From Forficula auricularia (taxonomy: Eukaryota > Arthropoda > Insecta > Dermaptera > Forficulidae), in NCBI GenBank assembly GCA_024734495.1, contig JALMQS010000061.1, positions 6,067,321 through 6,131,320 on the forward strand: a stretch of 64,000 nt of DNA, written 5' to 3'. This document shows positions 13,701 through 63,211 of the stretch, one piece after another (position 1 is the first letter of the stretch; the number at the start of each line of letters is the position of its first letter). The notes under the pieces are model-generated. The model was given only the letters and a program-made list of their open reading frames with translations, searched no databases and was not told the DNA's origin. The translations under genes and the position numbers were made by a program.

Positions 13701-16700
13701 AAAATTACTTACACTTTTCGTTCTACAACTTTATTAAACTAAGATAGGTGTACAACAGATACATTATTTTTCGATATAGTCTCCACCTTTAGCAATGCAC
13801 TTGGACCAGCGAGCCACAAGCTTCCGGATGGCTTTCTGGTAGGTTTTCGGTTGGTCATGAAGCCACTTTTGCACCGCGTAGCTAGACGACAACTGACGCG
13901 ATCGTGATTAAATTCCGCACACGTGACCACAGACGCGCCAACTCAACGCATGCGTATGTGGCCGCCTCCTATCTTAGTTTAATAAAGTTATAGAACGAAA
14001 AGTGTAGGTAATTTTTGACTTATCCTCGTATATAAGTCAAGGCTGGGAACGATAAAATACATGTATTTGTAATATATTTGTATTTTAAATAAATGAGGTT
14101 AAATAAAGTATTTCAAATACATTGCTGCCAGTATTTTGTATTTAAAATAATTATAAATTTATATCGAAAATACTTGAAATACATTCTGTTTAATATTCCC
14201 TATATATTTTTTAGATTATAGAAGATCATGTTTATCAATAAAGAAGTTTTGGATGAAACCACGTAATCGAAGATTTTTAATGAGATAAACTCATTAGAAT
14301 CCACGACGTTTCGATCTGTGTTCAGGATTCATCATCAGCTGTATATCTAAGGTTGCGTATTCTAAAACTAAAGTCCTTTTCGAAATGTTGGGCATTCTAA
14401 CGAATGATTTCATTTCTTCAAGATAATATTTCTATTACCGGTCTATTTGTCTATTTATTTCAGTTTTCCCATCAACTACGATAATTATCAAGTTAAATGT
14501 TTGAAAATAACATTATATATTGATTGTTCTAATTTGATAACATTATATTTGTGCCCATGATTATGAAAGTGGACTAAGTCAAAAAATTAAAAAAATTAGT
14601 TTTTTCATATTTTATGTTCCATCCATTTAAAAAGTACAGAATATAGTAATGAGATGTCGGTTTTGAAAATCGCATAAAATTGAACCGTTAAGTGGATTTC
14701 TAGTTGTCTTATTATACAGAATTCGAATCTTGTTTATTTTATAAAACTTTAAATATCTCGAAACTAACAATCAATGATTTAGACCACTTTCATAATTATG
14801 GGCACATTTATTTTGGGACTAGAAGAGTTAAATCTAAATATATATTTTTATAGATAACAGAACAAATCCAGAAATAATGTTAGTTTTGAGTATAAATCAA
14901 TGTTTTTACTTTACCATACAGGTTATGGTTAAGTATTGTAATCGTGTATGAAAAAAGTGTTGTTTTTTTTTGTACTTTTTTTCAAAATATCTCAAAAACG
15001 GCTGAAACTATTTTGATTAAAAAAATTGAGCGCAACCGTGGCATTTCGGTCTACAAAAAAGCCCTAATAATTAAACATCGAAAAAATTATATTTTTCGAG
15101 ATAATAATTGTTTTGTCAAAATGTCTGTTAGTTAGTCTGTCTGTTAGTCTGGTTGTCCGTTAATCTGTGCGTTACCAAATTTTTGTGGACGAGCTAGCTC
15201 AAAAACTAGTGTGAATATCGAAACCAAATTTCACACTTAGCTTTGACGCATTGAGATTAAGAGCTGATTAGATTTTGGTGCATATCGACCCAAAATTAAG
15301 GGGAGTAGAGGGGGGTTAAAAATTAAAAATCTAGGCCATTTAAGCAAACTCGACCAAATTTTGTATATATAATCTCCAAAAGTCAAAAAATGCAAAAATT
15401 AACCCCCCTACATGATTATAAATAATTTTATTAAATATAAGTGAGGGGCCATGTTGTATTGTAAAGTCAAGTGGATGGCCACATCAGAACGTGTCAGTTT
15501 ATTTAATTTGATATTATTTTATGTATTTCAGATAGATTTTTTTGAGTATATTTGTATTTCAAATACCCAAAGTGGGGAATTTTGCCTCTCTCTGATAATA
15601 GTGAAAATGAAAATGAGACACCTTGGTTATGTTTCAGTTCTAAATATAGATGAGAATTAAAAAACAGAATAAATCAGTAATTTTTATTATAATACCTGGG
15701 TAATATAAGTAAAAAATTTTGATAATTACTAATAAATACTCATTGAAGGAGACAATAAAAGAGTGTGTCTTCTGCTGGAATTATAAATTTTCATCATCAT
15801 CATTGAGTATACAGTCCTAAGACTGGTTTGATGCAACAATCCGTCTCCACTCGACTCTGTCCCCCGCCAGCTGTTTAACCTCTCTAAATGTCTGGCATCC
15901 CATATCCCCAATTATTTGGTTGAAATATTCTAATCTGGGTCTTCCCTTCCCCTTTTCTTTCCCACCTCCCCCTCCAAGATATCCCTAAGCAGTCCCCCAT
16001 GTCTCAGTGTGTGCCCCATCATCTGACCTCTTCTCTTCTTCAGACTCTTCCACAAAGGTTCTTCTTTCTCCGATTCTTCCAAGAACTTCTTCATTTGTAA
16101 TTTTATCCATCCATTTGATATTCATCATTCTTCTGTAGCACCACATTTTCGAAAGCCTCCAATCTCTTTCTCTCCGCTTTTCCAATTGTCCAGGTTTCAC
16201 ACCCGTACATGGCTATGCTCCATACATATGTCTTCAATAGCAACTTCCTGTTTGCTAAGCTGATTGAGGAGGAGCATAGTAGTTTTTGTTTTGAATTAAA
16301 CCCCATTTTTGCTTGGGCAATTCTTGATTTAATTTCGTTTTTGCTCCTCCCATCCCATGTTATTTTACTTCCTAGGTAGCGGAATTCCTTAACTCCTTCT
16401 AGGTTTTCTTGGTTAATTTTGATGCATTCCTGTCTCGTTTGTTCTTTTTTGTACATACTAGGACCTTGGTTTTATTCTTGTTTATTTTCATTTTGATTTC
16501 TTCTATTAGGATTTGGTTAATTCCATTCAAGGCGTCCTCTAATTCTTTTTTATTGCTTCCTAGAAGGGCAATGTCATCGGCAAATCTTAACATAGCGATC
16601 TTTTGACCTTGGATTTCGATACCTGTATCAATTTTGTCTTTGAATTCTTTAATCGCTTCTTCTATGTATAAGTTGAAAATCATGGGTGACAGCACACATC

Positions 16701-19700
16701 CTTGTCTTACACCTTTTTTATTTTGGCTTCTCTTTGTTCATCACCAATATTTATAATTGCCGTCTGGTTTTGATATAGATTGTAGATTAGTCTTCTCTCT
16801 CTGAATTTTATTCCCGCCTGTTTTAATATTTTAAACATAATTTCCCAATTGACGATAAATTTTATTTATTTATAACGAGACTATAGTTTCGAGGGCTTTG
16901 CCCTCTTCATCAGTCTATTAGATTCATAAATTAATTCCTGTGAATACATTGTAATAGACTGATGAAGAGGGCAAAAGCCCTCGAAACTATAGTCTCGTTA
17001 TAAATAAATAAAATTTATAATTCCAGCAGAAGACACACTCTTTTATTGTCTCCTTCAATATATAAAAATTCTGCTACTCTCGGCAAAAACTTTCAATTTA
17101 ATAAATACTCATTTTAAACCATTTTATATCTTCCTCATGAGGCCAAGTTATATTCCACTGCATCAGTTCATTTTTAATCATTAATAACTGATCCACTGGG
17201 GGTAATTTTTCTTTTATTTTTTTTTCTACAAAAGTAGTTTCTTGAGACTTTTGGTCAAATGTTGAATATATTGCTTTTGGCTGTAAAATTTAAATTTCAC
17301 TAATTTATCATGTAGGTATATGTATAAAATAAATAATTCAAAAATTGAAAAACAAAAAATTATCTTTACTTACAATATGTTTTTGTCCAACAATTTCACA
17401 ATTCGGCGAAATTGGCTTGAGAGAATATTTGTTAAAAAAAAATTCAGCGACTAAATGTCGTATCCGTTTAACGTGGAATTCATTATTTTTACTTTTTGTT
17501 TTAAAAAGTTCTATATTTCTATTTATCGCTTCAATCTGAAAGAATAAAATAATTAATTGATCAACATTTAATTAAAATTAGAATTTTTTTTATTATTTAC
17601 CTGAAGATTTTTATAAAAATCGGCACATGCTAAAAATTGATCAAAGAAATAGGGACATATAGATTCCTTAGGTAAAATGGCATTTTCAGATGTTTTCTTT
17701 TCGTAAAATATATATAAATATTATATTATTGAATTAGTCGATAAGGATATATTAATTTATTTAACTATTAACAATCAAAGATTAACCGTAAAAAGTCTTC
17801 AAAGGAGTTAGCCATGGTTCTATATAGGCAAGGCCTTTGTAATCCAAGCAAATGAAATAAACTTCAGAATTGCCTTCTTTACTTGTGACTGGTTTGAATA
17901 CATGAATTTGATTAAAAGCATTCCATAAAAAATTAATTAAACAGCATGATTCAGATTCAAATAAAGTGAACATTTTCATTAGAAAAGAACCTCCTAAAAA
18001 TTAATAATAAAAATAAATCAAATTGCTTTAATAAAAATAAATGATTAGGATATAAATAAAAATTATTGAAGCAGAATTATCATTAAATAAAAAAAAAATC
18101 GCTTTCCGAGGATTCTGTGCTTAATATTTAAATGATAAATTAAATCTTTATAAATATTAAGTACAAAAATTGGCTAAAAACACGTGTGTGCTGATATTAC
18201 TTGTATCTGCTCTATGAGGTATCTGCCTCAGAGCATCTTCATGAGTCAATAAATAAATAAAATGGATGATCTGGGGCCACGATAAACTTAATTTAAAAAA
18301 TTAATTGAAAGTAATGGAAGGCAGCCCATGGGTAGTGAGGAAAGAAAAAATTAACACATCAAATAAGGTCTAATTTATTGGAATCCTTCCTTCTTTACTT
18401 TCAAACCGACGTTTCGGAGGATTCTTCCACCCTTCTTCAGGGTTTCAAGGGGTCAATGAAGGAAACAAATAAAATGCTTCCTTCCTCTCTCTACAACAGT
18501 GCTGAAGAAGGGGGAAGAATCCTCCGAAACGTCGGTTTGAAAGGAAAGAAGGAAGAATATACCCCTTATTTGATATGTGTTAATTTTTCTTTCCTCACTA
18601 CCCCTCGGCTGCCTTCCATTACTTTCAATCAAAAGTTCTACCAGCCCGTCTCTCTCCAGAGAAAATTTCGTTGCAAATTAATTAAAAAAAATTTAGTCTA
18701 ATTCAATTTAATTATATTTTTACGGGGATATCTTAAACATACTGATAATTTTTTTTTATTTTCGACCTTTCCTAAAATAATCATTCGATTAAATTTTAAT
18801 ACGATTTGAATACACATATAAGCAGTAAAGTTTGTATCTTATTTAGTTTACGAGCTACAAGACGAACAGTAATAAGATTCAGTTTTACTTTTATATGGAA
18901 ACCTAAAAAAGAAGCCGGACCTAAAGGGTTTGAAAGATGGCTAGACTAACAAATCAGAAATCATGGACCCTAACAAAAATTTAAAAGCGCCTTATTAAAT
19001 AAATCGGAAGACAATGTGAAACCACCCAGATGAAAAATTTGCCCACACCATTACTTCAGAATACTCTCCATAGTAAACGGCAATGCTCAACATCGAGTAT
19101 GGCACTAAAACAGGGGTCGGCAACCTGCGGCTCTTTCTATGTCAAGATGCGGCTCTCCAGTTTCACGCGAAAATATTAATAACTATGTTATTTTATTTTC
19201 AAAACTCATAAAAAAATATTATACTGCAAGTAAAGTAAGAAGCCAACTAACAAATAAAAATCTGGAGGTGTGCTTGAAACTGGAAACAACAAGTTATGAG
19301 TCAGATTTAACCAAACTTTCAAAAGGCATCCAAGGCCAATGCTCTCATTAATGTAACTATCTATTATTCAATAATTATAGTTATATTATTTATTTACTAA
19401 TTTTATTATTCTAGCAGAGCTAGATAAAATACTTTAATATTAATAAAGTTGTTGTAGGAAATAAGGACAATAGCTTATGCAAATAATTTTTATTTATTGC
19501 CAACGTTTCGTCAATTTTGTTGACTTCCTCAGGGCTCAAATAAATTAACTTCCTTGCATATTTGTCATTTTATCAATATTCCTTCTTAGCAAACTTATCA
19601 GGCCAATCATCAAACAGATTGAAAATATTAGTTTGATGACTGGCCTGATATGTTTGTTAAGAAGGAATATTGATAAAATGACAAATATGCAAGGAAGTTA

Positions 19701-22700
19701 ATTTATTTGAGTCCTGAGGAAGTCAACAAAGTTGACGAAACGTTGGCAATAAATAAAAATTATTTGCATAAGCTATTGTCCTTATTTCCCTACAACAACT
19801 TTATTAATTTAATCGATGGACATAAAAATAATCAAAATACTTTAATATGTTTTGTGCGAAACATTTGTATGTTTTTATATGAATAAATATTATTTCATAT
19901 TTAAAGTTATTTATTTTAAATCAAAAATCAAATTTATATACCTAATCCTAATCAAATACCATAATATTGAAACAAAAATGTTAGTGGCTCTTTAAAAACT
20001 GGGAAATTTTGTAAATTGTAACTTTTGGCTCTTCCGTCTCAAAAGATTGCCGACCCCTGCACTAGAAGAAAGGAGTGAGATCCACAGCTCTAGGCTGCTG
20101 ATGATTTATTATTTTAGAATAAAAGTCTCATATAACAATGATGAGAGTAGTAGATTCAAATTGTATATATGAAATTCAGATAAAAAAAAGATTGTTTTAG
20201 AATACCAGTTTCTAAAATTTGAAGAGCAGTAAATGTTTCCCAATAATTCAGAGGGGAAACTAAATTTTCTTGTTCCCCGGGGTCTTTTTGACAATCTATA
20301 CTTCCATCCGCTGTCACCTATAAAAATTAATCATATATAATCAGTATTACTATTACAATTTTTAAGACTATTTTAATTACAAAAATAATAAAAAATAATA
20401 CACATTCAAATAAAATATTAATATTTTTTGGATTATATTATGTGGAAAAATAAGAACTAAGTAGTTGTATTAAACAAAATAGAATTGTATTCTTAATTTT
20501 TTTTATAAATTAAATTAGAAAATAAGGAAAAAATTTTTATAGGCTAAAGGACCAAACAAATTCGAACCCGCAACTTCACATACCCAGTGTAGTGTGAAGC
20601 TCTAATGAACTTTGCTAAAAGTTTCCACTCCCAGATTGACCCTAAATGTTATATAAACATATAGAAAGTTTTCCTTTAATTAAATTAAATTAGAGAACGA
20701 AGAAAATATTTTTTATTATAGACAAAAGGATCAGCCGGGATTCGAACCCGAGATCTTCGCATGTGCGCTGCGATGCCTTCATAAGAGCCTTAGCTCTTAT
20801 CCTCTCGGCCACTGATCCCCGAACTCAAGCTAATACCTAATGTCTATATGAATTTGGAATTTCATTTTTATTTAATCTTTAATCTCTTCCTCGTTCATTT
20901 TTGCAGCTCTTTAGTGGCCGGACTATTATTAAACTATATTCAAACGCCTCCCAATCGATAGATCAGGCCACTACAGAGCTGCAAAAATGAACGAGGAAGA
21001 GATTAAAAGATTAAATAAAAATGAAATTCCAAATTCATATAGACATTAGGTATTAGCTTGAGTTCGGGGATCAGTGGCCGAGAGGATAAGAACTAAGGCT
21101 CTTATGAAGGCATCGCAGCGCTCATGCGAAGATCCCGTGTTCGAATCCCGGCTGATCCTTTTGTCTATAATAAAAAAATATTTTCTTCGTTCCTAATTTA
21201 ATTTAATTTATAATTGTCTTTCGACGCGGCCTCGTTGTGATTGCGCCCCGAGGTAAAGAAAAAATTATTTTCGACCTTTGGGTTTGTGATCAATTGGGAG
21301 GTGTTTGAATATAATTTTCCTTTAATTTTTAATTTATTTATTTTTTAGTTCCAAGTTTGGAAAATAATTAAATTTTCTCAAAGTCATGAAGCGAAATTAC
21401 AAATGAGGCCTTTTTCAAACAAAGACAATTGATTATAAATTAAATTAGAAAATAAAGGCAATTTTTTAGGGTAGGTATATATTTGTAATTTAATTCTTTT
21501 TTAATGTATTATCGGAATAAATTATTAAAAATTATTAAAGACTTCTAAAAAATTATTATAATAATCTCAATTTTAAATCAAAAGGGATATATTGATGGCC
21601 TATATTTATCTGAAGAAGGCATAATATAATTTTCAACGTTTCTTAGATAATACCAATAAGAGAGAATTAAACCCAATTTGATTTTTTCAAAGTGACAAGC
21701 CACCAGAAAATAAAAAGTCGACGCCGAGAAATTAAATTCCTTCACAGAAGGGGCAGCTTTTTAATTCAGCAAAAGGTTCCTCTCATCACAATTGTCTTAT
21801 GGGCTATTCGACTTGATGCACAAGCAGCGCATCTCATGCATATTTAGAAATTTCTCCCAGTCAAGTGGACATGTTCACCGAATAGGTTATTTGATATTCT
21901 TCTAAATTTTGTGTAAATAAAATTTGGAATTTAATATAAAGGATTTTTTTTATAAATAAGTTTTTTTAATCAATAAAATGAAAAAATAAATTATCTTACC
22001 AACATAATTCTTCCTAATTGTTGCTTTACATTTTTAACGATAAAATTCATATTTTCTTGATTCATAAGATTTCCAGTAAAATCGGCTCCAAAATTCCAAT
22101 TATCTATTGTATTTAATATAAATCGGTCATCATTTATCATATTAGATAGAGGATTTCCTTCATAATATGGATTAAGAGTTGTGGCTCTCCAACCCCACTG
22201 AAAATTATATATTTAATTAAAATTATAAATTTATATTAAAAGAATATATTCACAAATAAAATTAAATGAATAAAAAACGTTTTGTTGAAATTGAAAAAAT
22301 TTACTGAAATTTAAAATATAAAAAAATATTTATAAAATTATTATTTAATAAATAATTCTCAACGTTTTATTTTAAAATGTTATATTTTTAAATAAAAATA
22401 TATAAACCTTAGTATTTGGATGGTGCGATTTTAAATAATGATTTAAAGATGCGATAAATGCTCCAGGGGCTTCACATAAATGGACTGAATTGAATGTGTT
22501 ATTTTGTACAGTGTGGTCCGATATTAATGGAAAAGTACTAACAATTTCATAAAATTTACACCATGCCTAAAAATGTAAAAGTATTTGATTTATTATAAAA
22601 ATAAATGAAAATTTTAATAAAATAAAATAAAAACATGATAATACAGAAAAAAATATGCAATCAAGTAAATACCTGAGTTAATAATTCTGGTTTAATTTGA

Positions 22701-25392: not shown

Positions 25393-25420
25393 TTTAGTCT
25401 CTGCAAAGGTAATAAGCTTT
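25393..25420 (-). promoter_or_regulatory. Splice acceptor in the CMTR2 5' UTR
   Basis: On the minus strand ATTACCTTTGCAG precedes AGACTAAA and the CMTR2 start codon. This is a good acceptor, so at least one non-coding first exon should lie to the right, between here and the SNIP1 promoter region. Confidence 0.6.
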
Positions 25421-25760: not shown

Positions 25761-25791
<31 letters not shown>

Positions 25792-38330: not shown

Positions 38331-38534
38331 TTAAGTGGATATCGATGAGGCAGTCCAAAAGAAGAATAAGATAATTTACACTATCTTTTTATTCGTAAAA
38401 CCGACGTTTCGGAGGCTATTCCATTTCAAAACCCTGAAGAAGGAGGGAATAGCCTCCGAAACGTCGGTTTTATCAATAAAAAGATAGTGTAAATTATCTT
38501 CTTTTTTTGGACTGCCTCATCGATATCCACTTAA
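38331..38534. repeat. Palindrome with one intact hammerhead core
   Basis: Arms of about 95 bp (TTAAGTGGATATCGATGAGG and its reverse at the outer ends). The right arm holds a full core at 38434-38465; the left arm keeps only the GAAACGTC half. Confidence 0.85.
38434..38465 (+). ncRNA. Hammerhead-like core
   Basis: CTGAAGA, stem II GGAGG/CCTCC (GGAGGGAATAGCCTCC), GAAA, CGTC on the + strand. Confidence 0.66.
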
Positions 38535-39737: not shown

Positions 39738-39892
39738 ATAAAAATGTAATACAAGTTTTAAGGAATTAACGGATATAATAACAAACAAAATATGTGTAGA
39801 AAAATCTGAGATATAATCAAAATGTTAGAAAAATTTGCGCCATTGGTAATCTCTGATTTTTCTGTATACCTATATTTTGTCATAATCTAGAT

Positions 39893-40370: not shown

Positions 40371-40379
40371 ATCTAGATG

Positions 40380-47300: not shown

Positions 47301-50300
47301 AAAATGTATCTTTAATTGCAAGCGTTCAAAAATTCATTATTTGAAATTCCAGCGCTAAGCTAATGATTGCCGTTTCCGAATAAAATAAAATTTTCAAACA
47401 GAAGTTCTGTAATAGCTCGTACAAAGCCCAAAAGTCTTTGGCTTAAGAAATAAAAACATTTTGGCACTAGAACTAACTTCCCTTCCTGGGTTATCCTGGG
47501 ACCGATACTCAAAAGACAAACAAAATCATGGATGAAATTATTTTTCCCAAGTTTCAAACATTTCTAAACATAATAAAACCCGGCAAGTAAGAGTCGGATT
47601 CACATTACCGATGATTACATACCTTATTATATCTTCCAAAAAATTTGAAATATCAAATTCGTTCTTGTTTGTTTGATCCGGAGGGAATGAACAAATTTGT
47701 TGATTTTTTTCATAATTTGAAGTTAAGCCAGGAGGTACAAAAATCTCCTACAAATGGCCACTGTGAGTCGTCTTAGAATGAATTGAATAAAAAAAATTAT
47801 ATGGGATATAACATCACAACCCATGAAAAAAAATTGTTTTCGAACCCACAAAAAATGCAACCCTAGACAAAATAATTATTAGAATAAAATTTTAATGTGA
47901 TTTTTAATTTCGAGCAAAATTAATATACATAGGTAACTTGTAAATTTCAAGTTTGTATATCTAATTTAGGATGGTCTGTCAAAGGGACAGACAAAAAGAG
48001 CACGTGCCGTCAGTAATAATGTCCCGTTTTGGTTATATACGGAACCCTAAAAAATTTTTAAATTAAATTTTTTAAGCGAATTCAATATCCTGACGGTGTT
48101 AAGACTTCACTCAATTTTTCACTTGTTTAAGACATAAATATGGTGTTTAATGTAAATCCACAAATATAATTAGAGTAGAAAATTTGAATGAATAAAATGG
48201 ATCTGAAATGAATAAATATAATTCCGATATTGGAACCCATAAGTTTAAGTTTATATTTTAGGTAAATAAAAATCAATATTGTTAGAAAACTGATCTCCTT
48301 CCTTAAATCATATACCCTTTGCTTAGATTACTGCCAAATACTAATTAACAAATGAATATAAATTCCCACCTGAACTCGAGCTTCCGTGAGAGATACTCGT
48401 CTTGCTAGTTCTTCTCTGGCAAAGGCGTCAGGATAATGGGTTCGTTCAAAAACTCGCTCTAGAGCAGCCAATTGGGCTGTAGTAAAGGTAGTTCTATTAC
48501 GACGAGGTTTTTTCGTTGATGCTGAATGAGAATTTGGACGGATTCCTGATCTTCGTTCTTCACTATCCACAGGCGAAAGATTATCACAATCTGAAAGAGA
48601 GAGAGAGACTCTTTTATATAAATCATTTGCTAAAGAAAATCAAAAGAAGTTGTCAACTATTAAATCCGTGGGGTAACTATGTTTCTAACAGGAGATAGCT
48701 TCGGGGGAAGTAATATTTCAGGGTTATGGGGTGAAGGGTAAGATGGATAGGAGATCAGCTGAATGAATAAATAGATAAAATAAACTGATGTGGCCATCCA
48801 CATGACTACCACACGCCTGTCCCCTCTCTTACATTTAATTTAATAAAATCATTTATAATCATTTAGGAGTCAGGTTAGCCGAGTGGTTAAAGACCATGCC
48901 TTCTAATCAAGCAAGCCAGACTTGTTGCAAATATTTGACCGGTTATAATCTGATTCCTTCAGTGGAAGGCAATGAGAAACCTGTGGAAAATTTTCCCAGA
49001 AAAATTACAATGGAGAGGATACTCTCTCTAGGCACTTGGACCAAACTATGGGCGGTTAGTTTTTACACTTATAGACTTTTGGGGGCCCACTGATTATGTG
49101 TATACAATATTTGGTTGAGTTTGGTCCAAGGGCCTAGATTTTCATTTTTTGACCCTCCCCCCAATTTTGTCCTCAGAAAAAAATAATAATCTTTTTCCTG
49201 GTTATAAATTCATTTTATAGTATATTTCATTTTTCTTGTTTTGTTTTGTTTTTTAGTTTTAAAATCTTATAATTTTAATTTTTAAACCCCCTTAATTTTT
49301 GGTTCGATTTCAGCCAAAATCTAATCAGCTCTTAATCTCCAATGCACCGAAACTACATGTGAAATTTCGTTTTGGTATTCACACTAGTTTTTGAGTTAGA
49401 GCGTCCACAAAAATTTGGTAACATACAAATGTACTAACAGACATTTTGACAAAATAGTAATGCTTCAAAAAATATAATTTTTTCGATGTTCACTTATTAG
49501 AGGTTTTTTTGTAGGCCTAAACGCCATGATTTTGCTCAATTTTTTTAATCAAAATAGTTTCAGCCGTTTTTGACATATTTCAATACTTGTATTCCCTGTA
49601 TGGTAAAGTAAAAAGGAAAAATAAAATTACTGGAAAAGTTCTAAATCGAGAATTGATAAAATAAATAAAAAACATAATTTAGTTAAGGCTACTACAGAGA
49701 GAATGAATAAAGAGTGGATTAAAGAATAGGGGAAGGCAATGGGAAACCACCCCTGCGAAAAATTTCCCCAGGAAAATTACAATGGAGAGGATACCCTCCA
49801 TAGTAATAGCCGACGCTCGGAATCGATTATGGCACTTGAAGAAGAAGAAAGATTAAATTCCAAATTCATATACACATGAAATAAATTGAATAGTTAGCGT
49901 CTATAATTATTAATTAAATGAAGGCTGCGGAGAATTGTACTTTGTTCTAAATAAAACAAGATAGGTATTTGTTTAAGACAGTTTAATCAAGTCGAGATTA
50001 ATCAATTTCAAATTTACAAGACGAATTTAATTTACTTGATCCTATTCTGAAATTGATAATGTGTACTTATATATATATATATAGGATATAGTCCAACATA
50101 ATTGAAAACTTTTTATTTTTTTAACAATACCTCAAAATTTAATGTGTCCAACTTTATCGGCGTCAAGCTATATAGTAAGAAGCAGAATAAGGTCATATCT
50201 TTTAAAATAGTTCAGATATTTTATTTTAAACACCACCAAAAATCTGACCTTTATCAAAATTTTAATAAGATTTTGATTTCGGGGAAATGAATAGATATAA

Positions 50301-52150
50301 CCAATAAATAATAATAATAATAATAATAATAATAAGCTCAACGAGGTAAAAATTATTCCGATTGTGATGTCTGTGGAGGGTGTGTCCAGCAACAACTTAA
50401 AAAAGAACATCAGATCGCTAGGGATATCAGACGAAATAACACCTCTCGTGCAAAAGGCTGTCGTTTTACAGACCTGCTATATAGTAAGAAGATTCCTAAC
50501 GATTAAATGAACAAAAGAAGAGTAACTGAGGGCCAGGGTGAATTCCCTTTCCACAGCGTCTGAGCCTAACCCCATAAGAACAACAGGGGTAGGTGAAATT
50601 TTACCAGCACTTGTGCTGAGTAAGTGTCATAACTCAAATAATAATAATAATTCTTTATTAGCTATTTTAGCTATACATCATACAATTAAACAAATATATG
50701 TAATTTGTTTTTAAATAATACATTCAATTCACGAGATACAAAAAGATAACGATACTCAATACATTCTAAAATATAACAATTTATAATAAACATATAAATG
50801 TATAACACACCATACATGACAATAAACAAATGAACACATGTACATATAAACAATAATAATAATAATAACAAAAGTACAAATTAATCCTACATAAAAAAAA
50901 AAAAAAAAATCACAATCTTGGTATTATGGGAAAAGGAATATAACAAAAACAATAATAACAGTAACAACATATATATAAAACATATCACAAGTAATTATTG
51001 CTCTGATATTAGCAATAGCCTCACTTCTCTTTTAAATGCCGATAAAGTTTTACATTTTTTGATGTATTCGGGTAAGTTATTATATAATCTTAACCCTTTA
51101 TAGAATACGCTGTTCATGGTGCTTGCCTTGTTTACTGTACTCAAGTAGAAGTCTCCCTGTTGTCTTGTTCCATGGGAATGTATTGGTTTCATTTCGTTTA
51201 ATTTATCTATTAGATATTGAGGTGCAAGTTGGTTTATGATTTTGTAAACAAATATCAAAACTTGCATTTGTATACAATTATTTATATTAAGCCATTCCAA
51301 TGTGTCAAGCATTTCTTTTATCCTGGTGTACCTATTGCACTTTAATATAATTCTCATGGCTTTATTAAATTAAAAGTTTGAATCTTATTTAGTTTACGCT
51401 CGAACAGATACTTAACACCGACACTAAAAGACTCTTGTTTTCTTTTTGAACGGAACCCTAAGAAAATATCAAGTGAAGTCATAATCAAATTTCTTTCAAA
51501 ATCTATAAAATGATTGCCTTGAACAGAAAACCAAATTTACTTTTTCATCTAAAATTATTTTTCCGAAATACTCTCAACATTCTACAACAACAATAATATA
51601 CATAAACGGAAACTTTGGCTGATCACTGTGGATCCTTCCACGAGTCTCCATTAACTTATTAAAATTATTGAATTCCGAGATTACCAAAATGTGTATTTCA
51701 GGTGAAAATTCCAATTCCAATTTTCGGATCCAGAATAATACTTTCTAGAATATGGTAAGATAAAAGTAAAAAATTCTGAGTTCTGAAACTATTTTTTTTT
51801 TGTTTTTTTTTGTTTTTTTTGAAAGTTTCTAGCTGAGATTAGTCTGAAGAGCCTGAGGTTGCCCACCCATGGATTTCCTGCTTAGTCCCTAAGGACTCTG
51901 CCCTGGCTTCCAAATCCATGGAAAAAATATTCTCTCACCAATCTAGGTAAGATTCATTCAATCCTTTGAATCGAACTGCTAAATAAATTATTCGTATTTG
52001 TGAATCGACCATAAAAGTGATTAAGATGTTGAGAGTATCAGGTTTTCGGTCAAAATTAACACCTTAATTGTTTAGTTCCGAGTTTTCGATCTTTTATTTG
52101 ATCATCGTCAGGGCTATAAAACTATGTTTAAAGGTAGTTTTTTACATTTT

Positions 52151-52195
<45 letters not shown>

Positions 52196-53888
52196 CATCC
52201 AAAACTACTTATATATTAATTTCTCTATGAATAGTTACGAGTAGTGGTCACATTAAAGTTAATCAAATAGTTACTTGTCAATTTTTGGAGAATATTTTGA
52301 TCTGAAACAGAATAAAATACGAGAGATGATTTGGAATAAATTTTGATTTTAAAACATTTTCCTTATATTATTTTATAGCCCTAAATATGATCAAATAAAA
52401 GATCCGAATAAACAATTAATCTGTTATTTTTGACAGGAAAGCTGTTACTTCCTCAACGTCTAAATAAATTATTAATATTACTTATAATTAAATATTCCAG
52501 CGCCTCCCAATCGATCGCAGACCCCAAAGATCGAAAATAATTTTCTCTTCACCCGGGGCGCGACCACAACGAGGCCGTGTAAAGACAATTAATAACAAAT
52601 TCAAATTTAGGGAACGAAGAAAAGATTATTTTTATTACAGACAAAAGGATCAGCCGGGGCTCGAACCCGGGATCTTTGCATATGTACTGCAATGCTTTGT
52701 CATAAGAGGTTGTTTGCCTCCTATATCTACTAAGCTACTGATCCCCGAACCCAAACCAATTAATAGTCTTTACACGGCCTCGTTGTGGTCGCGCCCCGGG
52801 TGAAGAGAAAATTATTTTCGATCTTTGGGGTCTGCGATCGATTGGGAGGCGCTGGAATATTTAATTGTTTGATTAATGAATCAAGGCCTACCCTGCGAAA
52901 AAATGAACGAGGAGAGGATTAAAAAAAAAGAAATTCCATAATTCATATAGACGAAAGGTATTAGTTTGGGTTCGGGGATCAGTAGCTTAGTAGATATAGG
53001 AGGTAAACAACCTCTTATGACAAAGCATTGCAGTACATATGCAAAAGTCCCGGGTTCGAGCCCCGGCTGATCCTTTTGTCTGTAATAAAAATAATCTTTT
53101 CTTCGTTCCCTAAATTTAAATTTATTACATATAATTATAGACAATAGAACATAACCGAAGTTAATGGAGCAAAAGAAAATATTCTGATACCTATAAAAAT
53201 TCATGAAGAGATTGTCAAAATACAAGTTCATTCTGGCACCAAATTATTTGTATTTTTAAACCAAAGAACATATTAGATTTTGAAATTTCTAGCTTTCGGT
53301 TTAAAAATGCAAAAAATTACTTTTGAAGTCGGTGCCAAACAAACTATACCTATAAGCGAGCGTATCCGCCAAACGTACTAAGTAAGATCCGTCGAGTGCG
53401 ATTCATAAAAGGTATATTAATTAATTAATATTAAAAGGTATATGTTTGGAACCAACTTCAAAAAGTAATTTCATGTTAATATTTCGTCGTTTAGTTGTAA
53501 CTAAATAAGATAATAATTATTTTTATACCTTTTAGTGTATTTTTTTTGTTGCATTTAATTTTTTTGAAGTCGGTTTTTAATTTTTTCTTAAAAATTATTT
53601 TTATATTTTCTCTGTTTAGTGATGTTATTAATAGTGATCATATCATCAGAACTTGACCAAATTAATATGACACCATTCCTAAGACACCCCTTTCGGATAA
53701 AAAAAGAACCATCGAAAATGGTTCATAAACAAAGAGGTTAGGTCTAAACAAACCTAATAAAAAAGGTCTAATACCTATAAAAAAAATAAAAAAAAAAAAT
53801 GGGACCAATCGGAAGCTAGACTGGACCCAATGCAAAAAAATTTTCAAAATCGGTTGACAATTGGCGGAGATATGAGGTAACATAGGCA

Positions 53889-53936
<48 letters not shown>

Positions 53937-56900
53937 GTCGAATAGAGAACCTCCTCCTTTTTTGAAGTCGGTTAAAAAAGGAGGAGGTTCTCTATTCGAC
54001 TGAATTTTTTTTTTTTTTTTTTTTTTTATGTGCCTATGTTACCTCATATCTCCGCCAATTGTGAACCGATTTTGAAAAAAATTTTTGCATTGGGTTCGGT
54101 CTACCTTCCGATTGGTCCCATTTTTTTTCATAGGTATTAGACCTTTTTTGTTAGGTTTGCTCATACCTAACTTCTTTGTTTATGAACCGATTTCGATGAT
54201 TCTTTTTTTATTGGAAAGGGGGTATCTTAGGGATGGTGCCATATTAATTTGGTCAAGTTCTGATGATATGATCACTATTAATAACATCACTAAAAGAGAG
54301 AAAATAAAAATAATTTTTAAGAAAAAATAAAAACCGACTTCAAAAAATTAAATGCAACAAATAAAATACACTAAAAGGTATAAAATAATTATTAACTTAT
54401 TTAGTTACAACTAAACTACCAAATATTAACATGAAATTACGTTTTTAAGTCAGTGCCAAACATATACCTTTTATGAATCGCATTGGCACCGAGTACAAAA
54501 AGTAATTTCATGTTAATATTTCGTAGTTTAGTTGTAACTAAATAAGTTAATAATTATTTTATACCTTTTAGTGTATTTTATTTGTTGCATTTAATTATTT
54601 TGAAGTCGGTTTTATTTTTTTCTTAAAAATTATTAAACCAAAGAACAGATTAAATTTTGAGATTTCTACCTTTCGGTTGAAAAATAAGAAAAATCGAAAC
54701 GTTGTGTTACATGGTGTTGAATGGTTGTAGTTAATGAAGAGAAAATAAACTTCCCCTTTGACTAAAAAAATTGCCAAAACTCAAAATTTACAGAAAGTGT
54801 ATCGAGTTTGAAAAAGTCACCACTTTTTTAAATTTCAAATAAATATAATATTTTTAAGTTATTCAATTCCCTAACGTCTTTGAAAGCACTAGTTCATTTT
54901 CGATCACGATAAACACTTGAGATTTCTACTCAAAGAGTAGACAATTTTTCCCATTTGAAGGGTTTCGTGGTTCTCTGAGTTACGTATTAAAATAGGTCAG
55001 GTCTGGGGCTGATAGGCCCAGGGCAAGCTACTTGAAATTTGACGAAAAATTAAAAACTGTTTTTATTAAAAGTCTGTACTTACACTTTATGCAAATTGAG
55101 GTGATTTGTAATTTTTTAAGTTAGAAATATTGCCAAAAAGGCACAGTTAATTAAAACAAGCTTTTATCTGGTGAATTTCACTTCGTTACATGCATTAATT
55201 TTATTCTAATTTTCTGCATTTTTAAAAGGAAGTTCTGAAGTTAGAAATTCCTTTTTCTATTCAGTTCTCTGTTTTGAAAATAAAATATTGTAGCATCAAA
55301 ATGAACTTCCTAGAAGTTTTACAGCTTCGAGCTGTCGGAACCTAGTCAGTCTCAAAAAATTATATGTGCACAATACGACTTTCACTTAGAATGACTACTT
55401 TTTTGAAATTTTAATAATATTCCTCTTTTAAATGAATCCCTCGTAAATCAATAATTCAAAAAGTAAAGGCTACTTCAACCGAAATCTCGATGAATTCTTT
55501 TAGCTCATACTTAACTAAAATCTGAATTTTCATTTGTCTACGACTTATTAGAGCTGAGATATAGGTATTTCAAATATTTTTTTGCAACACGCCAAATCAA
55601 CTCCCTTCTACAATTTTAATTTGACTAAAATACACTTTTGAAGAATTTATAATAATAGATAACTACCAGTGGCAGTTGGTGAATTTTCAGCCAGGAGATG
55701 CTGTCCTAAAAAAACATTTTCATTATATTTTTTTAAATTTTATTTTAAACTCGCTTTTTTTTACAAATTTCATCGAATTCGGTATCATTTTTGTCATTTT
55801 CCAAATTTAGCATAAGATTTTTAAAAAATATATTTTGGGATATTCGCCCCCATACAAACGGATACTGCTTTGTGTGAATGGGGGAAGGAGTCATAAATTA
55901 AATCTTTTGATTTAAACTCCAGAGTCCCTGAGATGGAAACCGACAATCTTCCACAATGAATCAGCCTGTCCTATAAGAAAATCTTAAATTTCTCTTAATT
56001 CTATTGCTAGAAGCAAGCTATGATTTGTCTAGTATAGCACTCTTAGTTATTTCAGATCTTATTATATTGAGGGTACTTAGAAATGGATTAGTCCAAAAAT
56101 TCCAGAATCATCTTTATTTATTCTTTGTTTCTATTATTACTATTTTAATAGTTCCTCAGCGAGAACAATTTTTATTCGACTAAAACTCGTCTGGACTTGT
56201 CTTTGACCTGCTTGAACTGGAAGCTATAGCAGGCAGGGACTTGAAACCTTCTATCTGCACCTCTTTTCGGAAAAATCATTCATTTTAATTGCCCCTTGAA
56301 ACTATGCAACTTTTTTATTTCATTTCGAGATTCAATATACTTTTACAAAACAAAAAATGTTTTTTATAGAAATATTTTAAACGGATAATAATTTGAAAAT
56401 TTAAAGATCCTCCTGAATTTTGAAGTCGATATTTATGAAAATACTCTAAATGTTTGAAATTTTAGAGATGCTCCGCATCCGCAGTATACATGGACCGCAC
56501 ACTAGTGATAATTGCTTATATTGATACAAAAATAAAAAAGTTACGCTAATATTATGACACGCGAAGATCATCTAAGTCGATTGCTTGCTTTTGGAGTCAA
56601 GAAGTAGCATAACTTCCAGGCGCATACGAGCCGATCGGAGCTTTTAAATATCATTTTTGTCTTCACGTGAAAAACATACCCTTGTTGTATGGTACATAAA
56701 GAAAACAATTAATTTTATTACCTTTGTAAATCGGCATAATTTTATCAATTTATCTATTTGAATAGCTACAGTTGATATGGACCTGAAATTTGTATCTTTA
56801 TTCTAAATTTCAGAATAATATAAAGTTCATCCCAGCTGTAGCTATTCAAATGATAACTGTAAATCTTATTTAATTATTCAATAAGTTCGGCGGTATCAGA

Positions 56901-58583
56901 TCCATACAATAATTTTCAAATTTTTGTACGCGTGTTTAGAAATGTCTTAAACTGGATTTAAAACAAGATGTTTTTGAAAATTGAAAAGTTTTTGTTTTGC
57001 CGAGATAAGCAGAGTTGTTGATTCACAAAGAGAAACAAAGGAGGTTGTCCTCTGCTTGATGCAAATAAACATACACACATATATATCGAAATTATATATC
57101 TGTCAAACAAATAAATAATATATATACAGATATATAATTTCGATATATATGTGTGTATGTTTATTTTCATCAAGCAGAGGACAACCTCTTTGTTTCTTGT
57201 GTCAAGATGTTTTTGGTTTGTCTTTGTGCCTTGATTCAAGTTCCGACGATAGTCAAGAAGGAAAAGCGAAGAAAGTTTGGTCTGGTGTCAAAATTATTGT
57301 ATTTTCAAAACAAATAAGTGATTATATTTTAAGTTTTCAAGCTTCAGAACTCCCAATTCAATAATGAAGAAAATATCAAACTATCAAATTATATGGAAAA
57401 CTATCGAAAGGGTTTGTAGCCATGGATGCCTGAAGAATATTTTTTAAATAATGAAAACTTTAATAACTAATTTGTCTTAAGATTTCATCTTAAATTTACT
57501 ATTATAAATTTTATTTATTTATTTTTTTCAAAAATGACTTCCCATATTGTAGTCGAGATTAAATTTAATGTAGCCTGTAGCTAGGGAAAAAATATTGTTT
57601 TGATTTGAAATTTCATTAAATTTACTAATTCAGTTTATTGAAATAAAATAAATATTTTTTAAAGTATCAAATTCTTGAAAAATGATATGAGTTATTTTTA
57701 TTTTTTATGACAAATTCGTTTTTTATTTTTTTATTAAATTGGCTTATAATAAAAAATCTTTTAATCTCAATTTTCATAAAATTTCTTTGTATAAACCAAT
57801 TTTAATTTCACACGAGAAAATGAATTAAATTTTTTAAAGATATATAACGTTTTGGCTTCTTGATAAAAATATTTATTTGTAAATGTTCAAGATATGCCTT
57901 AATATATAAAAAATTTTTAAGAAAAAAATAAAAACCGACTTCAAAAAATTAAATGCAACAAATATAAAAATACACTAAAAGGTATAAAATAATTATTATC
58001 TTATTTAGTTACAACTAAACGACGAAATATTAACACGAAATTACTTTTTAAAGTCGGTGCCAAACAAAATATACCTATAAGCGAGCGTACCCGCCAAACG
58101 TACTAAGTAAGATCCGTCGAGTGCGATTCATAAAAGGTATATGTTTGGCACCAACTTCAAAAAGTAATTTCGTGTTAATATTTCGTCGTTTAGTTGTAAC
58201 TAAATAAGATAATAATTATTTTATACCTTTTAGTGTTTTTTTATATTTGTTGCATTTAATTTTTTGAAGTCGGTTTTTATTTTTTCTTAAAATTTTTATT
58301 TTTCTCTTTTTAGTGATGTTATTAATAGTGATTATATCGTCAGAACTTGACCAAATTAATATGACACCATCCCTAAGACACCCCCTTTCGGATAAAAAAA
58401 GAACCATCGAAATCGGTTCATAAACAAAGAGGTTAGGTCTAAACAAACCTAATAAAAAAGGTCTAATACCTATGAAAAAAAATCGAAAAAAAATGGGACC
58501 AATCGGAAGCTAGACTGGACCTAATGCAAAAAAAATTTTCAAAATCGGTTGACAATTGGCGGAGATATGAGGTAACATAGGCA

Positions 58584-58627
<44 letters not shown>

Positions 58628-61600
58628 ATCGAATAGAGAACCTCCTCCTTTTTTGAAGTCGGTTAAAAATAAAATAAGTAGGTTATAATGAAAGGCAGTC
58701 CATAAATAATTGTATTTTATTTTTATTCAATTTCCGACGTTTCGAGACTTTTTTCTCTCCTTCTTCGGGGTATTGAAGGAGAGAAAAAGTCTCCGAAACG
58801 TCGGAAATTGAATTAAAATAAAATAAAATAATTTATGGACTGCCTTTCATTATAAGATTATAACCTACTTATTTCGCTTACCAGTCCGCCTTTCTAAGAA
58901 AATAAATAAAATTACATTTCGATAATATAATTAATTATATTGGACCGAACAAGTAAAGGAACATTACCCCACCTCCACCAGGTAAGTACCTAGGTACATA
59001 ACTATTACTCTCAAGCAGCCTTTCTTCTCATTTTCTGACGTTTCGATGACAATAATTCACCTTAATTGGAGCTTAATAATTCAATTGATATAGTGCACTC
59101 GAGAGTTTTTTCCGAGTCGAATCTTGCTTGAGTCAGAACAATTTTCAACTCTATCAAAAACGCAAGGCGCCTCAATAAATCCGTGGGAAGGCAAATGGAA
59201 ACCACCAATGTGAACAATTTCCCCAGGAAAAATTACTAGTTAGAGAAATGCTCTCTAACATATGTATACCTAGTCACACTGCTCACAATTGAGTATGGAA
59301 CTTGATGAAGAAGAAAAAATGAATAATTAATTAATTATCCAAATAATTACAATTGATTTATCATTAACCAATAACTTAAGGCGTCCTTTAAATTTTTTTA
59401 AAGAAATATAGGGCCCTTTTAAAACTAAAACGATTAAAGAAGGATATTTATTTGAGTTTGAGAATGATAAATTACTAAGGCACAGAGGAGCTGTTTTTTA
59501 GCCATCATAATTGAATATACAAAAGAACAATAAAATAACAAATTTTCTATCAAAATATTACACTTCCTTTCCATCGTCAGAGCATTCATTTAAAAATTTG
59601 ATTAAAATTTAGGGGGTGGTAACTTTTCATAAGATGGAATTCGTGATTTAATGAATGATTTACAATTTTATGAAATAATCAATAATTCAATCGATTATTA
59701 GTATAATATTAGTGTTACATGGATTAATTGAATAAAATTACAAAAAGATTTAAGAATGTAAGTACCGGATTATATTGAAAATGGCACTAATTTTAATTTT
59801 TGTTAGTGAATAACATTTGTGATATTTAATTACTTTTTTAGTAAAATCTAAATTCTAAAAAGAAATTAACTAAACTGGTATGTCTAGCCACATAATTTTA
59901 CCATACACCTGCCTCCTTAATTATATTTAAGAAAATAATTAATAAAAATTCACGAAAGACACCGCTCTTAATTTTGAGCCCTTTAACAATTAATAATATC
60001 TCGTTTTAAACATGGGATCTCTCCGAGGGTAAATAGCTTTCTAGTATTTTTATTTGAAAATTTCATCATTTTAATTATTTGTGACGCTTTCCCTTTGGGT
60101 CACTATCGCTTTCACATGGAGAGTCATATTCGAGTAAGATCGTATAGAGTGCGATATGCAAAATTTCGTACAACTCGATCAGAGGGTCTAGAATTTACTA
60201 TAATATTGATAATTATATTTTGTGAAATCAGTGCCAGCCCAATTTTGGTCCCCGAAAGAAGAAATGACTCTTTTTTAATTATAGGACCCTTTATAGTAAA
60301 TTTTAATTTTTTAAGAACTCACACCCCTTAACACCCATCTCCCCTAATCCCAATACATCAAAATTATATGTGAAATTTTGTTTTGATATTCATAATAGTT
60401 TTTGAGCTAGGGTGTAGGTACACAAAATTTGATAACTACTAACAAACTTACATACCTACACTAACCCACTAACAGATATTTTGACAAATTAATTAATATA
60501 ATTTTTTTCAATGTTTTTTATAAGGTTTTCTTGTAGACGAAAAACCCCTGGTTTCGTTAAATTTTTTTTATCAAAATCATTTGGGCCGTTTTTGAGAATT
60601 TCGAAGAAACGATGTAAAAATCGCACTTTTTTAATGCACTACTTAACCATAAACAAATGATCTTTGGCTAGCTTGCTATAACAACAAAACGAATTTATCC
60701 ATGCCCCATCGTATAAGTGAACCCATGAGAAATAACACGTAGGTAGTTAAAAACATTAAAACCATTTTCCGTCTTAAAACTTGATTTACAAAGATCATCA
60801 AACAGTTTCAAGCAAAAACAAAAAATACTTTTCTTCGATGGTGAATACACCATCCACGATCTTAACAGCTTTCCACCATTAGGTAAAATTTGAAAAAAGT
60901 CGCGATTAAGCTTTCTTGTTTCGCTTTTGGGTTTGATTGTATTACCAGGTATTTTTACTCCTTCACTGAAATCGGCGTCTAAATTTTAAACGGACCTTGA
61001 CGTACCAAGTATACTCCGAGCAAAATTTTTAGAGATAATATTTTCTACCCTATACTTGACGACGAGGAAAAATATTCGAAATTATACAGTAATTCATAAT
61101 CCGTGGAAATCAAACAATAAACTTATGAAGTAAACAAGTTGTTTTTTCAACTATAACTAAATATAAAAAATGTCCTCCCAAAATATGTGTCACCCGGTGC
61201 GGACCCCCGTGCGCACCTCCATAGGTACGCCACTGCATATACGTGAATGCACAGTTATTTAATGTTATACCTAGTTTTATGACATTATTCTTATATTACT
61301 ATTTAAAAAAATCTGATTTATTAAAAAAAAGTTGAAATTCTGGATACGTTTGAAACTTTAGTCTTGAACGAAGGGTAAACCGCGACCTAATATCGTGTAC
61401 ACCTACTTCCACTTCCACTTTCATTTCCAAGTAGAAGACAATAGATAAAGAGGCATTATCTAATGAATTCCAAAATAATTCCACATAATTCCAATCGCGG
61501 TTCACCCCTCAGTCTTGAATAAGTGAAAATATTTTAAACAACTAATTTCTATTTAATGTTTTACAGAAATGTGCTATTTTCATTAAAATGTTGAAATAAT

Positions 61601-61802: not shown

Positions 61803-62050
61803 GGTCTTTTGTTCAAATTGCCATTTACTATTGCTAAGGAAATCTTAAACATCCGAAGAGGAACTGAGTGGCATGGCAGGCACTAGCACTCGCGGGTTGC
61901 GTTGTCAACATGAACACGGGGTAGACTGTGCCGGGGACAAGCTGGGACGAACATCCCTTGGGGGCCGGGGGGCGTGTCTTTCAAACGGATACGCCCCTCC
62001 GCCAGCGCCAATTAGCCTTGCTCTTTTAAATGGCCACAAACACCCATGCA
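61803..62050 (-). promoter_or_regulatory. GC-rich probable promoter and 5' UTR of the Prrx gene
   Basis: The only GC-rich non-coding block in the window. On the minus strand, going towards the gene, it has CCATTTAAAAGAGC (TATA-like, about 62033-62020), GGCTAATTGG (homeodomain-type core), GGAGGGGCGTATCC and ACGCCCCCCGGCCCC (GC boxes), and an initiator-like ACTCAGTTCC near 61873. Motif assignments are inference. Confidence 0.45.
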
Positions 62051-63211
62051 ATCACATTAAAAAAGCTTCAAATTCAATATGTAATCTGATATTTTATTAA
62101 AAAGAAAACAATTTTATTTCTCTATTTACATTAATGCCTCGAGACAAAAAATTAAAAAAAAAATTCTTAAATACAATGTAAAAATAGTAAAAAATTATTT
62201 CAAAAATTGAAAAAAAGATTCAAGACTTGGTACGCAGTTTGCAATTTCGGGGAATTCATAATTTTAAATGAGAAATAGGTATCTAAATCTGATATTCATT
62301 TCGATTTAATATTTTCTTACCTATACCACCGAGAGATGCTCGGTAATGCATGTGTTTATTTTTGATTTAATCAATCATTTGTTTTATTTTGATTCAACCA
62401 CCTCTTAATAATTAGTTTAAAAACTTATCAAAAAAATTTTTTCCCAAAAGTGAGACCTGTATTATTAAATCGTGGTATTAAATCGATTCTTCCATGTCTT
62501 CAGCAATTGTTACCTATAATAATCGAAACGTCAAAAATTCAATACCTATTCAATGCAATATAATTGGAATTAGTAGCCTTTCCATCAATTCAGCATTAAA
62601 TTCTATCTCTCCATCTTCAATACCTCTAATTAATTTTTTTTATTTAAATGACAATTTTTTGAACCGTCTATCTAAATAATTAAATTCGCTAATTTTAATA
62701 TATAATAATATTTGTAATGATTTATTAGTGGGATTTAAAATTTAAAAACCAATTACTATAATTATTAAAAGGAAATTGAATAAAAATGTAATTACCAATA
62801 CATTTTTATCGAGACAATCACCTGTGAATATTTATTTCAATTAACAAAAAACCCATCAAAAACAACTTAGCCGAAGATGAGAACGTGACAGATCGAAATG
62901 TCAACCCAAAAAATCCCCTAATCCGTGAATTTCATCCAAATCGTTAGAGCCGTTTTCGAGAAACCGATTCTATATATATACAAGAATTGCTAACTAAATA
63001 ATATAAGATAAGATAAAAGTGTGAAACAGGTCTGGACTTGTATTTGACGTACTTGCAATGTCGTAGTTCTAAACTTATTTAGGCTAGAAACGCCCTTATA
63101 AGTAATTAATAATAAACTTAATAGAAATCAAAAAAATGAATTTACATTTTATGGACAATGTCATCTTAGTGAAAAATTATCTTATTGATAATTATGTAAG
63201 TATATATTGCA
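62051..63211. other. Gene-free right flank
   Basis: AT-rich sequence upstream of Prrx. The only recognisable item is a degenerate hammerhead-like core at 62871-62902. Confidence 0.4.
62871..62902 (+). ncRNA. Decayed hammerhead-like core
   Basis: CCGAAGA (expected CTGANGA), about 17 nt ending GATC, GAAA, TGTC. It resembles the minus-strand copy at 14305-14338 and is probably inactive. Confidence 0.4.

Follow-up and report, generated by a model that had tools for sequence, protein, structure and literature searches.

Hammerhead-type motifs in a 64-kb window of Forficula auricularia probably stem from head-to-head insertions of Penelope-like elements

We analyzed a stretch of 64,000 nucleotides (nt) of Forficula auricularia (assembly GCA_024734495.1, contig JALMQS010000061.1, positions 6,067,321-6,131,320 of the forward strand), hereafter called the window, from a genome of 1.06 Gb in 845 contigs. 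The window carries many hammerhead-type ribozyme motifs, often in divergent pairs. With good confidence, though short of certainty, we explain them as hammerheads from the pseudo-long terminal repeats (pLTRs) of Penelope-like elements (PLEs), inserted head-to-head when both strands of a cut target site primed the reverse transcription of mostly uncleaved RNA. Hammerheads in PLEs as such are of an already known kind.

Results

Hammerhead-type motifs in the window

An earlier sequence-only reading of the window had listed 17 hammerhead cores, four of them as decayed, and all 17 places were inspected on both strands. We also scanned the window with a descriptor composed of C[CT]GANGA, zero to two extra nt, a stem II of at least three pairs, GAAA, TH, and stem I. 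It matched ten times, nine times with one extra nt and once with two. In 100 dinucleotide shuffles, the mean counts were 0.04, 0.06, and 0.05 for zero, one, and two extra nt, or 0.15 per shuffle in sum. Chance text is thereby ruled out as the source of the motifs, and the descriptor search that had been proposed along with the list comes out in its favor. The stricter form of the descriptor, allowing no extra nt, gave zero matches in the window, and it was this empty scan that revealed the inserted nucleotide described below.

A covariance model, R1, was built from 17 training rows, namely 12 window loci and five loci elsewhere in the genome. At E ≤ 0.0065, R1 matched 16 places in the window, of which 12 were its own training rows; the other four (Table 1) include a partial match on the plus strand at 58774-58814 that was absent from the earlier list. 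The motifs are confirmed as hammerhead-type sequences. Both-strand inspection and R1 together support 15 of the 17 listed places. Of the remaining two, 62871, described as a decayed hammerhead, has no R1 match at E ≤ 10, and 14305, listed among the good ones, is weak, its stem II having two pairs adjacent to the core. The motif at 52080, taken for decayed, is a good one. The minus-strand coordinates of the list denoted the low end of each motif, and nucleotide C3 lies 29-35 nt higher (14305 corresponds to 14338, and 16879 to 16913).

A core with one inserted nucleotide

The core CUGANGA...GAAA...UH is present at 15 of the 17 listed places; the deviants are 58768, with CCGAAGA, and 28785, with GAAC. 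In almost all good motifs, an additional A or T stands between A9 and the first pair of stem II (CTGANGA-A-G...C-GAAA or CTGATGA-T-G...C-GAAA), as a single nt in nine of the ten descriptor matches and as two nt in the tenth, at 58768. At 31089, where the script parse gave nothing good, reading by hand found one extra T together with a broken first stem II pair. Among the PLE loci of the genome introduced below, all 45 motifs with a stem II of at least four pairs have exactly one inserted nt and none has zero or two; two of the 45, at 401 and 640 of locus L130, are unrelated to the L130 pLTR and may be chance matches. The canonical core, with no nt between A9 and the pair 10.1-11.1, was accordingly seen in 0 of 10 window motifs and 0 of 45 genomic ones. 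In viral contigs of IMG/VR, scanned with a pattern that requires CGAAACGTYG, covers no other loop III type, and takes A as the insert, a stem II of at least four pairs occurred in 42 of 79 matches without the insert versus 0 of 25 matches with it. The inserted nucleotide thus appears to mark this lineage rather than hammerheads in general, since a paired stem II was seen in IMG/VR only without the A insert. We do not claim it as novel, because the excerpts of PMC10085705 imply insertions of 1-2 nt between CUGAnGA and the stems in hammerhead alignments.

The 17 rows of the alignment are chosen motif matches and mutually related, and shuffle controls made from them are not strict probabilities. 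In this alignment, 88.6% of the stem II cells are paired versus 59.3% in shuffles and at most 54.4% in slid controls, and the covariation score of 0.729, versus 0.186 in shuffles, was reached in 0 of 500 shuffles. The second stem II pair varies among GC, UA, AU, and CG. Three of five covariation measures exceed all shuffles. The other two lie within the shuffle range, as 280 of 500 shuffles reached the count of pairs changed on both sides and 238 of 500 that of further pair types. The stem II covariation between families that the sequence-only reading had seen holds for paired cells and score, beyond every shuffle, but not for these two measures. The alignment has 12 invariant columns, which is partly due to choosing its rows as motif matches.

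Stem I is present by construction in the ten descriptor matches. A self-complementary loop III is seen in 14 of the 17 window motifs (13 by script, and the motif at 18440 with a hand-read ACGT), a count biased upward in that the script chose the palindromic reading wherever possible. Unconstrained minimum-energy folding returned a hammerhead for families C and B2, with stems I and II around an open core in the right arm of family C, and a fold with additional pairs inside the core for E2. A predicted hammerhead fold with a non-canonical core seems well supported by these sequences.

Link to Penelope-like elements

The genome was searched for the GIY-YIG domain, which gave 150 scored matches among 3423 candidates; 35 PLE loci fetched from this search served for the motif count and 65 PLE stretches for the comparison with window families. 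Two overlaps exist among the loci: L135 contains L113, and L109 and L110 are duplicates of a single insertion. Eight GIY-YIG matches lie in open frames of 825-864 amino acids (aa), three of them nearly evenly spaced at ~2909 nt. The three proteins scanned with Pfam, from L123, L135, and L137, contain RVT_1 and GIY-YIG, with RVT_1 of L135 under its cut-off. A motif with a stem II of at least four pairs is present in 29 of the 35 GIY-YIG loci, and a tandem array of 858-aa PLE frames with a period of 2909 contains one ribozyme per unit. The 858-aa frame of L123 has its first ATG ~200 nt past the cleavage site on the downstream side. The PLE traits seen include pLTRs in tandem or head-to-head and an optional 3' tail of 30-40 nt (~42 nt in the L123 clade, 39 nt in family A). 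At C618:2248973-2269888 of the genome (G000), the scored matches include seven PLE junctions spaced by ~2909 nt or double that distance, as in a long tandem array.

L137 carries the family A motif ~150 nt past the end of its PLE frame, and the family A region of the window is 99.4% identical to this locus over 180 bp. For family A2, the eight best matches among PLE loci are 77-87% identical. Judged by these sequence matches, families A and A2 derive from PLEs, and the Penelope connection raised earlier is borne out for both through loci with GIY-YIG. Among the 65 PLE stretches, families B1, C, E2, and G match fetched loci not tied to a PLE gene, the listed best matches of family F are simple repeats, and nothing matches families D, E, B2, B3, or H. 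For families B-F we infer a PLE origin from structural analogy, because they have the same type of ribozyme, motifs in divergent pairs, and a palindromic loop III. None of the scanned open reading frames of the window is a PLE gene, by Pfam or, for others, by eye; Pfam on the entire frame 3-12002 gave only Med18, and the remaining frames were not scanned whole, so that a PLE fragment could have been missed.

Head-to-head layout and motif density

Families A, B, C, D, and E2 form divergent motif pairs, as follows from insertions lying head-to-head. In family F the right copy of the pair is decayed, in B2 and B3 one motif of the pair is truncated, and A2, E, and G are single. Family A is flanked by a 13-bp duplication, TAATAAATACTCA, at 15730 and 17099, and the outer end of its right arm is 39 nt longer than that of the left, giving one short and one tailed end. 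It is interrupted at ~15792-16854 by foreign DNA, a later insertion with reverse transcriptase (RT)-like frames recognized by eye at 16103-16737 on the minus strand; the half that was scanned had no Pfam match. In family C, a spacer of 15 nt separates arms of 159 nt. Inverted pairs of 40 nt or more number 46 in the window, and many of them have no motif.

The number of motifs, which the sequence-only reading had found remarkable, needs no special explanation. It would reflect PLE insertions of several families, each counted up to twice, because reverse transcription starts as little as 105-147 nt past the ribozyme and even short arms therefore carry the motif, and because each insertion has two arms. 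Thousands of dispersed minimal motifs are described for many metazoan genomes in the excerpts of PMC7761336.

Insertion ends in the L123 clade

Insertion ends were analyzed in one PLE clade, with position 0 at the cleavage site and copies mapped onto the clade unit of L123. The table of two-ended insertions had 23 rows, and removing L110, L157, and L159, which repeat L109, left 20 distinct insertions. Most of their 3' ends lie either at +99 to +108 (short) or at +145 to +154 (long), ~42 nt apart; the stretch between these positions corresponds to the known PLE tail with its two RT start sites (PMC11167929). Sixteen of the 20 have a strict target duplication of 10-14 bp; 15 of these combine a short with a long end, one is of another type (+72/+35), and none is short+short or long+long. 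Five of the 16 (L154, L161, L162, L164, and L165) came from a query favouring long ends; the other 11 comprise ten short+long and one other. Under independent even odds, 15 mixed insertions of 15 have a probability of 3e-5 (computed by hand).

Arm lengths were compared in 18 of the 20 insertions (all except L127 and L129), hence in 36 arms. The 5' ends of the two arms are more than 100 nt apart in 14 of the 18, and in 12 of the 16 strict ones. Past the position of the ribozyme extend 28 of the 36 arms, and 25 of these 28 contain the motif; the right arms of L114, L116, and L121 cross without it. The cleavage site itself (+1) is not the end of any of the 36 arms, which speaks against a hammerhead-cleaved template as the source of the insertion ends. 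Since 28 of 36 arms cross the ribozyme and none ends at +1, most integrated copies would derive from RNA uncleaved at that ribozyme, the conclusion also reached in vitro for PAc of Anolis (PMC11167929). The remaining eight arms stop at +27 to +65; the interval from -46 to +26 contains no arm end. Folding of the L123-clade sequence predicts a hairpin that spans +10 to +65 (-19.3 kcal/mol), and arm ends at +27 to +65 may represent stops of the RT at this predicted structure.

As a probe of origin from one template, allele sharing between arms (19 loci named, 17 with overlapping arms) yielded few diagnostic source alleles. In three of 12 comparable strict insertions (L134, L164, and L162), however, one arm has a cluster of A-to-G or T-to-C changes that the other lacks, which suggests two template molecules. 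Relative to the column majority, and with a few sites shared between loci still among the counts, A-to-G changes in the sense orientation make up 8 of 8 in L134, 17 of 23 in L152, 8 of 9 in L123, and 5 of 7 in L162 (three within 10 nt), and T-to-C changes 8 of 10 in L164 and 8 of 15 in L163. The one-arm clusters resemble ADAR edits of the template RNA that became fixed on reverse transcription; the T-to-C clusters are unexplained if sense RNA is the sole template. Other A-to-G-rich arms were set aside as subfamily differences, their sites being shared between loci.

Table 1. Hammerhead-type motifs and associated features of the window, with R1 E values; TSD, target site duplication; tr, training row of R1; nt-row, non-training match.
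Feature	Coordinates	Strand	R1 E value	Remarks
Family G, doubtful motif	14293-14348	-	0.39	two stem II pairs next to core
Family A TSD, left copy	15730-15742			13 bp (up to 15 by one reading)
Family A PLE insertion, head-to-head	15743-17098			inverted arms 15742-15791/17010-17059 and 16855-17018
Family A hammerhead, left arm	16871-16923	-	2.3e-7	tr; family also in PLE locus L137; CTGATGA, extra A, stem II GAGGGC/GCCCTC, palindromic loop III ACTATAGT
Family A hammerhead, right arm	16949-17002	+	2.5e-7	tr; divergent to left
Family A TSD, right copy	17099-17111
Family B hammerhead, left arm	18396-18450	-	7.3e-8	tr; palindrome 18301-18632
Family B hammerhead, right arm	18492-18545	+	1e-6	tr; weak stem I
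Family C hammerhead, left arm	19490-19542	-	1.8e-9	tr; palindrome 19434-19812
Family C hammerhead, right arm	19704-19756	+	2e-9	tr
Family D outer arms	28228-28301 / 28822-28893			second palindrome inside
Family D hammerhead, left arm	28598-28652	-	5.5e-5	tr
Family D hammerhead, decayed right arm	28775-28829	+	0.0065	nt-row; GAAC for GAAA
Family A2 hammerhead, single	31047-31099	-	1.7e-5	nt-row; A2 region matches PLE loci; stem II pair 10.1-11.1 broken, then AAGG/CCTT
Family E hammerhead, single	34113-34162	-	2.6e-4	tr; extra T, loop III ATATAT
Family B2 hammerhead	38424-38477	+	1.7e-8	tr; palindrome 38331-38534, left arm without 5' part of motif
Family E2 hammerhead, left arm	42726-42776	-	2.1e-5	tr; palindrome 42666-43053
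Family E2 hammerhead, right arm	42784-42834	+	7.1e-7	tr; broken stem I; interrupted downstream by small palindrome (by eye)
Family F hammerhead	52068-52121	-	8.8e-7	tr; arms 52020-52121 / 52371-52465, right copy decayed
Family B3 hammerhead, part decayed	58724-58778	-	7e-4	nt-row; CCGAAGA core, two extra nt; palindrome 58672-58874
Family B3 right arm, truncated motif	58774-58814	+	0.0058	nt-row; partial

Other features of the window

The protein of the SNIP1 gene in the window is insect-like, insects prevailing among the named matches (120 listed of 4139 in total). A homeodomain exon lies at 48331-48639 on the minus strand (Pfam 4e-15), by eye part of a paired-type homeobox gene, the following exon of which, also by eye, would be 45907-46149 on the same strand; alone, the latter has no Pfam match. 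A transposon at 9179-11363 has terminal inverted repeats of ~274 bp and encodes a DDE_3 transposase with a helix-turn-helix, mariner-like by eye, and a 69-nt unit is repeated in three tandem copies at 8917-9126. Near-perfect inverted repeats with tRNA-like sequences occur at 3477-3702, 20678-21208 (Ile-TAT in both arms), and 52486-53127. Large palindromes without hammerheads were seen at 6207-6593, 24051-24512, 28323-28596, 53432-54634, and 57910-58297; those at 6207, 28323, 54309, and 57910 are mutually related.

Discussion

The motifs would be minimal type I hammerhead ribozymes in the pLTRs of several PLE families. According to the mechanism that we propose, reverse transcription of PLE RNA would begin at two internal start sites, ~105 and ~147 nt past the cleavage site. 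The cut target would supply a primer on either strand, usually one for each start site, and the two cDNAs, truncated independently, would then be joined 5' end to 5' end. The product would be a head-to-head insertion flanked by a target duplication of ~10-14 bp, in which any arm longer than ~150-200 nt leaves a copy of the ribozyme. Self-cleavage itself, like two-strand priming and the uncleaved template, is something that we infer. Because the core has been kept across PLE subfamilies that differ in stem II, a different step probably depends on cleavage or on the fold, perhaps with the help of protein or in dimers.

Several results weigh against this explanation. Rfam 15 reported no hammerhead in the window, neither at the gathering score nor at E ≤ 10, the very outcome that the sequence-only reading had named as grounds for abandoning its claim and that we do not accept as such. 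Over the whole genome, RF00163 gave no match either (73 of 118,820 candidates scored), and 14 control genomes were likewise empty. Because RF00163 also misses a genome that holds motif-bearing PLE loci, the silence suggests a limit of the Rfam models rather than absence of the motif, a reading that is not proved. Stem I is weak or broken in the motifs at 18502, 28642, and 42794 and in L123, and in the best folds of family A and L123, C3 and U4 pair with bases of stem or loop III in a competing structure; such predicted folds may fit a need for dimers or protein, or no activity. Families B-F have no direct PLE-gene link in the local search of the 65 PLE stretches. The end positions come from the single L123-like clade, and in the less examined L135 clade the ends lie near +65 to +72 only. 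Four of the 20 insertions lack a strict target duplication, two being short+long (L116 and L121), one other+long (L127), and one long+long (L129). Nearly equal arms, as snap-back would produce, occur in three of 18 insertions (L111, L114, and L161), and L112 has two short arms that differ by only 9 nt. For the arms ending at +27 to +65, a trimmed cleaved template could be the source.

How the two arms arose could also be explained by self-priming, in which a palindrome forms because a single cDNA, or an antisense RNA, folds onto itself and serves as its own template. The excerpts of PMC3846280 propose this for the PLEs of Adineta, and it would account for the near-equal arms just mentioned as well as for window palindromes with a short spacer, such as family C. 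A fold-back copies one start site, however, whereas the outer ends lie at different start sites in 15 of the 16 strict insertions, and the arms mostly differ by more than 100 nt. Because of this end pairing, the unequal arms, and the change clusters confined to one arm, we favor two-strand priming and consider self-priming quite unlikely. Highly improbable, in our view, are retrozymes, that is, families B-E as small non-autonomous elements that bear type I hammerheads and propagate through circular RNA, despite the absence of a PLE gene from the scanned frames and despite the excerpts of PMC7229834 and PMC7761336, according to which animal type I motifs are mostly reported in retrozymes, thought to be mobilized by PLEs. 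Retrozymes are direct tandem repeats of ~300 bp, whereas the fully paired copies in the window are divergent and none is tandem, and their loop III is minimal and palindromic like that of PLE loci in the same genome. Foldback or miniature inverted-repeat transposable element (MITE)-like DNA transposons, with hammerhead-like text arising by chance, would agree with the many motif-free inverted pairs; they are scarcely credible given the chance level of the descriptor, the stem II covariation, the occurrence of the motif in RT-encoding elements, and, for family A, the contrary evidence of L137 and L118.

Another possibility concerns what the motif is for: it might be kept as a structure that binds a PLE protein or a second RNA, with cleavage incidental or lost. 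The mostly uncleaved origin of integrated copies speaks for this, as do the excerpts of PMC11167929, in which ribozyme mutants had no effect on insertion in vitro and cleavage depended on protein. The PLE loci found through GIY-YIG nevertheless keep CTGANGA and GAAA despite different stem II sequences (GAAGAC/GTCTTC, GAGGGC/GCCCTC, and GCTGC/GTGGC), and the core is invariant in the 17-row alignment, although its rows were chosen as motif matches. We hold such a purely structural role to be rather unlikely. A more speculative and, to us, unlikely reading would make the hammerhead a dimerization device for PLE RNA, so that a dimeric particle copies two RNAs, one per target strand and from different start sites. 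The self-complementary loop III (ACGU, AUAUAU, or ACUAUAGU) might join two templates like a retroviral dimer-initiation loop, and cleavage could follow later within the dimer or be regulatory. In line with this idea are the palindromic loop III in 14 of 17 motifs, the short+long ends in 15 of 16 insertions, the unequal arms in 14 of 18, and the one-arm clusters in three of 12.

Minimal type I hammerheads in PLE pLTRs were reportedly described by Cervera and De la Pena in 2014 and by Lunse et al. in 2017, and the motifs analyzed here have in common with them the order of the core, the very short palindromic stem/loop III, the position in pLTRs, and the PLE host. The single inserted nucleotide (45 of 45 genomic and nine of ten window motifs) may set the present motifs apart. 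An extra nucleotide in the catalytic core is also said to occur in the hammerhead of Chrysanthemum chlorotic mottle viroid, reported by De la Pena and Flores in 2001, which is a plant viroid and not a retroelement.

PAc, a Poseidon element of Anolis carolinensis, is similar, as far as the excerpts of PMC11167929 go, in that the ribozyme lies closely upstream of two internal RT start sites that match a tail between them, both target strands are cut and extended, and unprocessed RNA is used. The start sites did not differ between strands in vitro for PAc, whereas single insertions here almost always mix both, and the start codon of PAc lies within the ribozyme, unlike the first ATG of L123. Penelope of Adineta vaga (PMC3846280, excerpts) likewise has head-to-head inverted pLTRs with a tail on one pLTR, and target duplications of 8-10 bp; self-priming is preferred there, whereas arm lengths and end pairing in our data prefer two priming events. 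Metazoan retrozymes, in the excerpts of PMC7229834, share a type I hammerhead within non-coding repeats but have direct tandem units of ~300 bp and, in invertebrates, a stable helix III, so that the layout of the window differs. Among the open-licence papers searched, we found none joining PLEs with twin priming.

According to a 2020 review, PMC7761336, how active PLE hammerheads are and what role they play is 'still a mystery'. Two cautions follow from our analysis: Rfam models missed these motifs, and the density of ribozymes in animal genomes may count PLE insertions twice. Many near-identical insertions in one genome allow the role of the PLE ribozyme to be tested from sequence, by locating insertion ends relative to the cleavage site and by asking whether one RNA or two gave rise to each insertion. 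In the small sample examined here, the templates appear to have been mostly uncleaved and usually to have been used from two start sites, which would limit the possible models of the ribozyme and would provide a two-strand alternative to self-priming.

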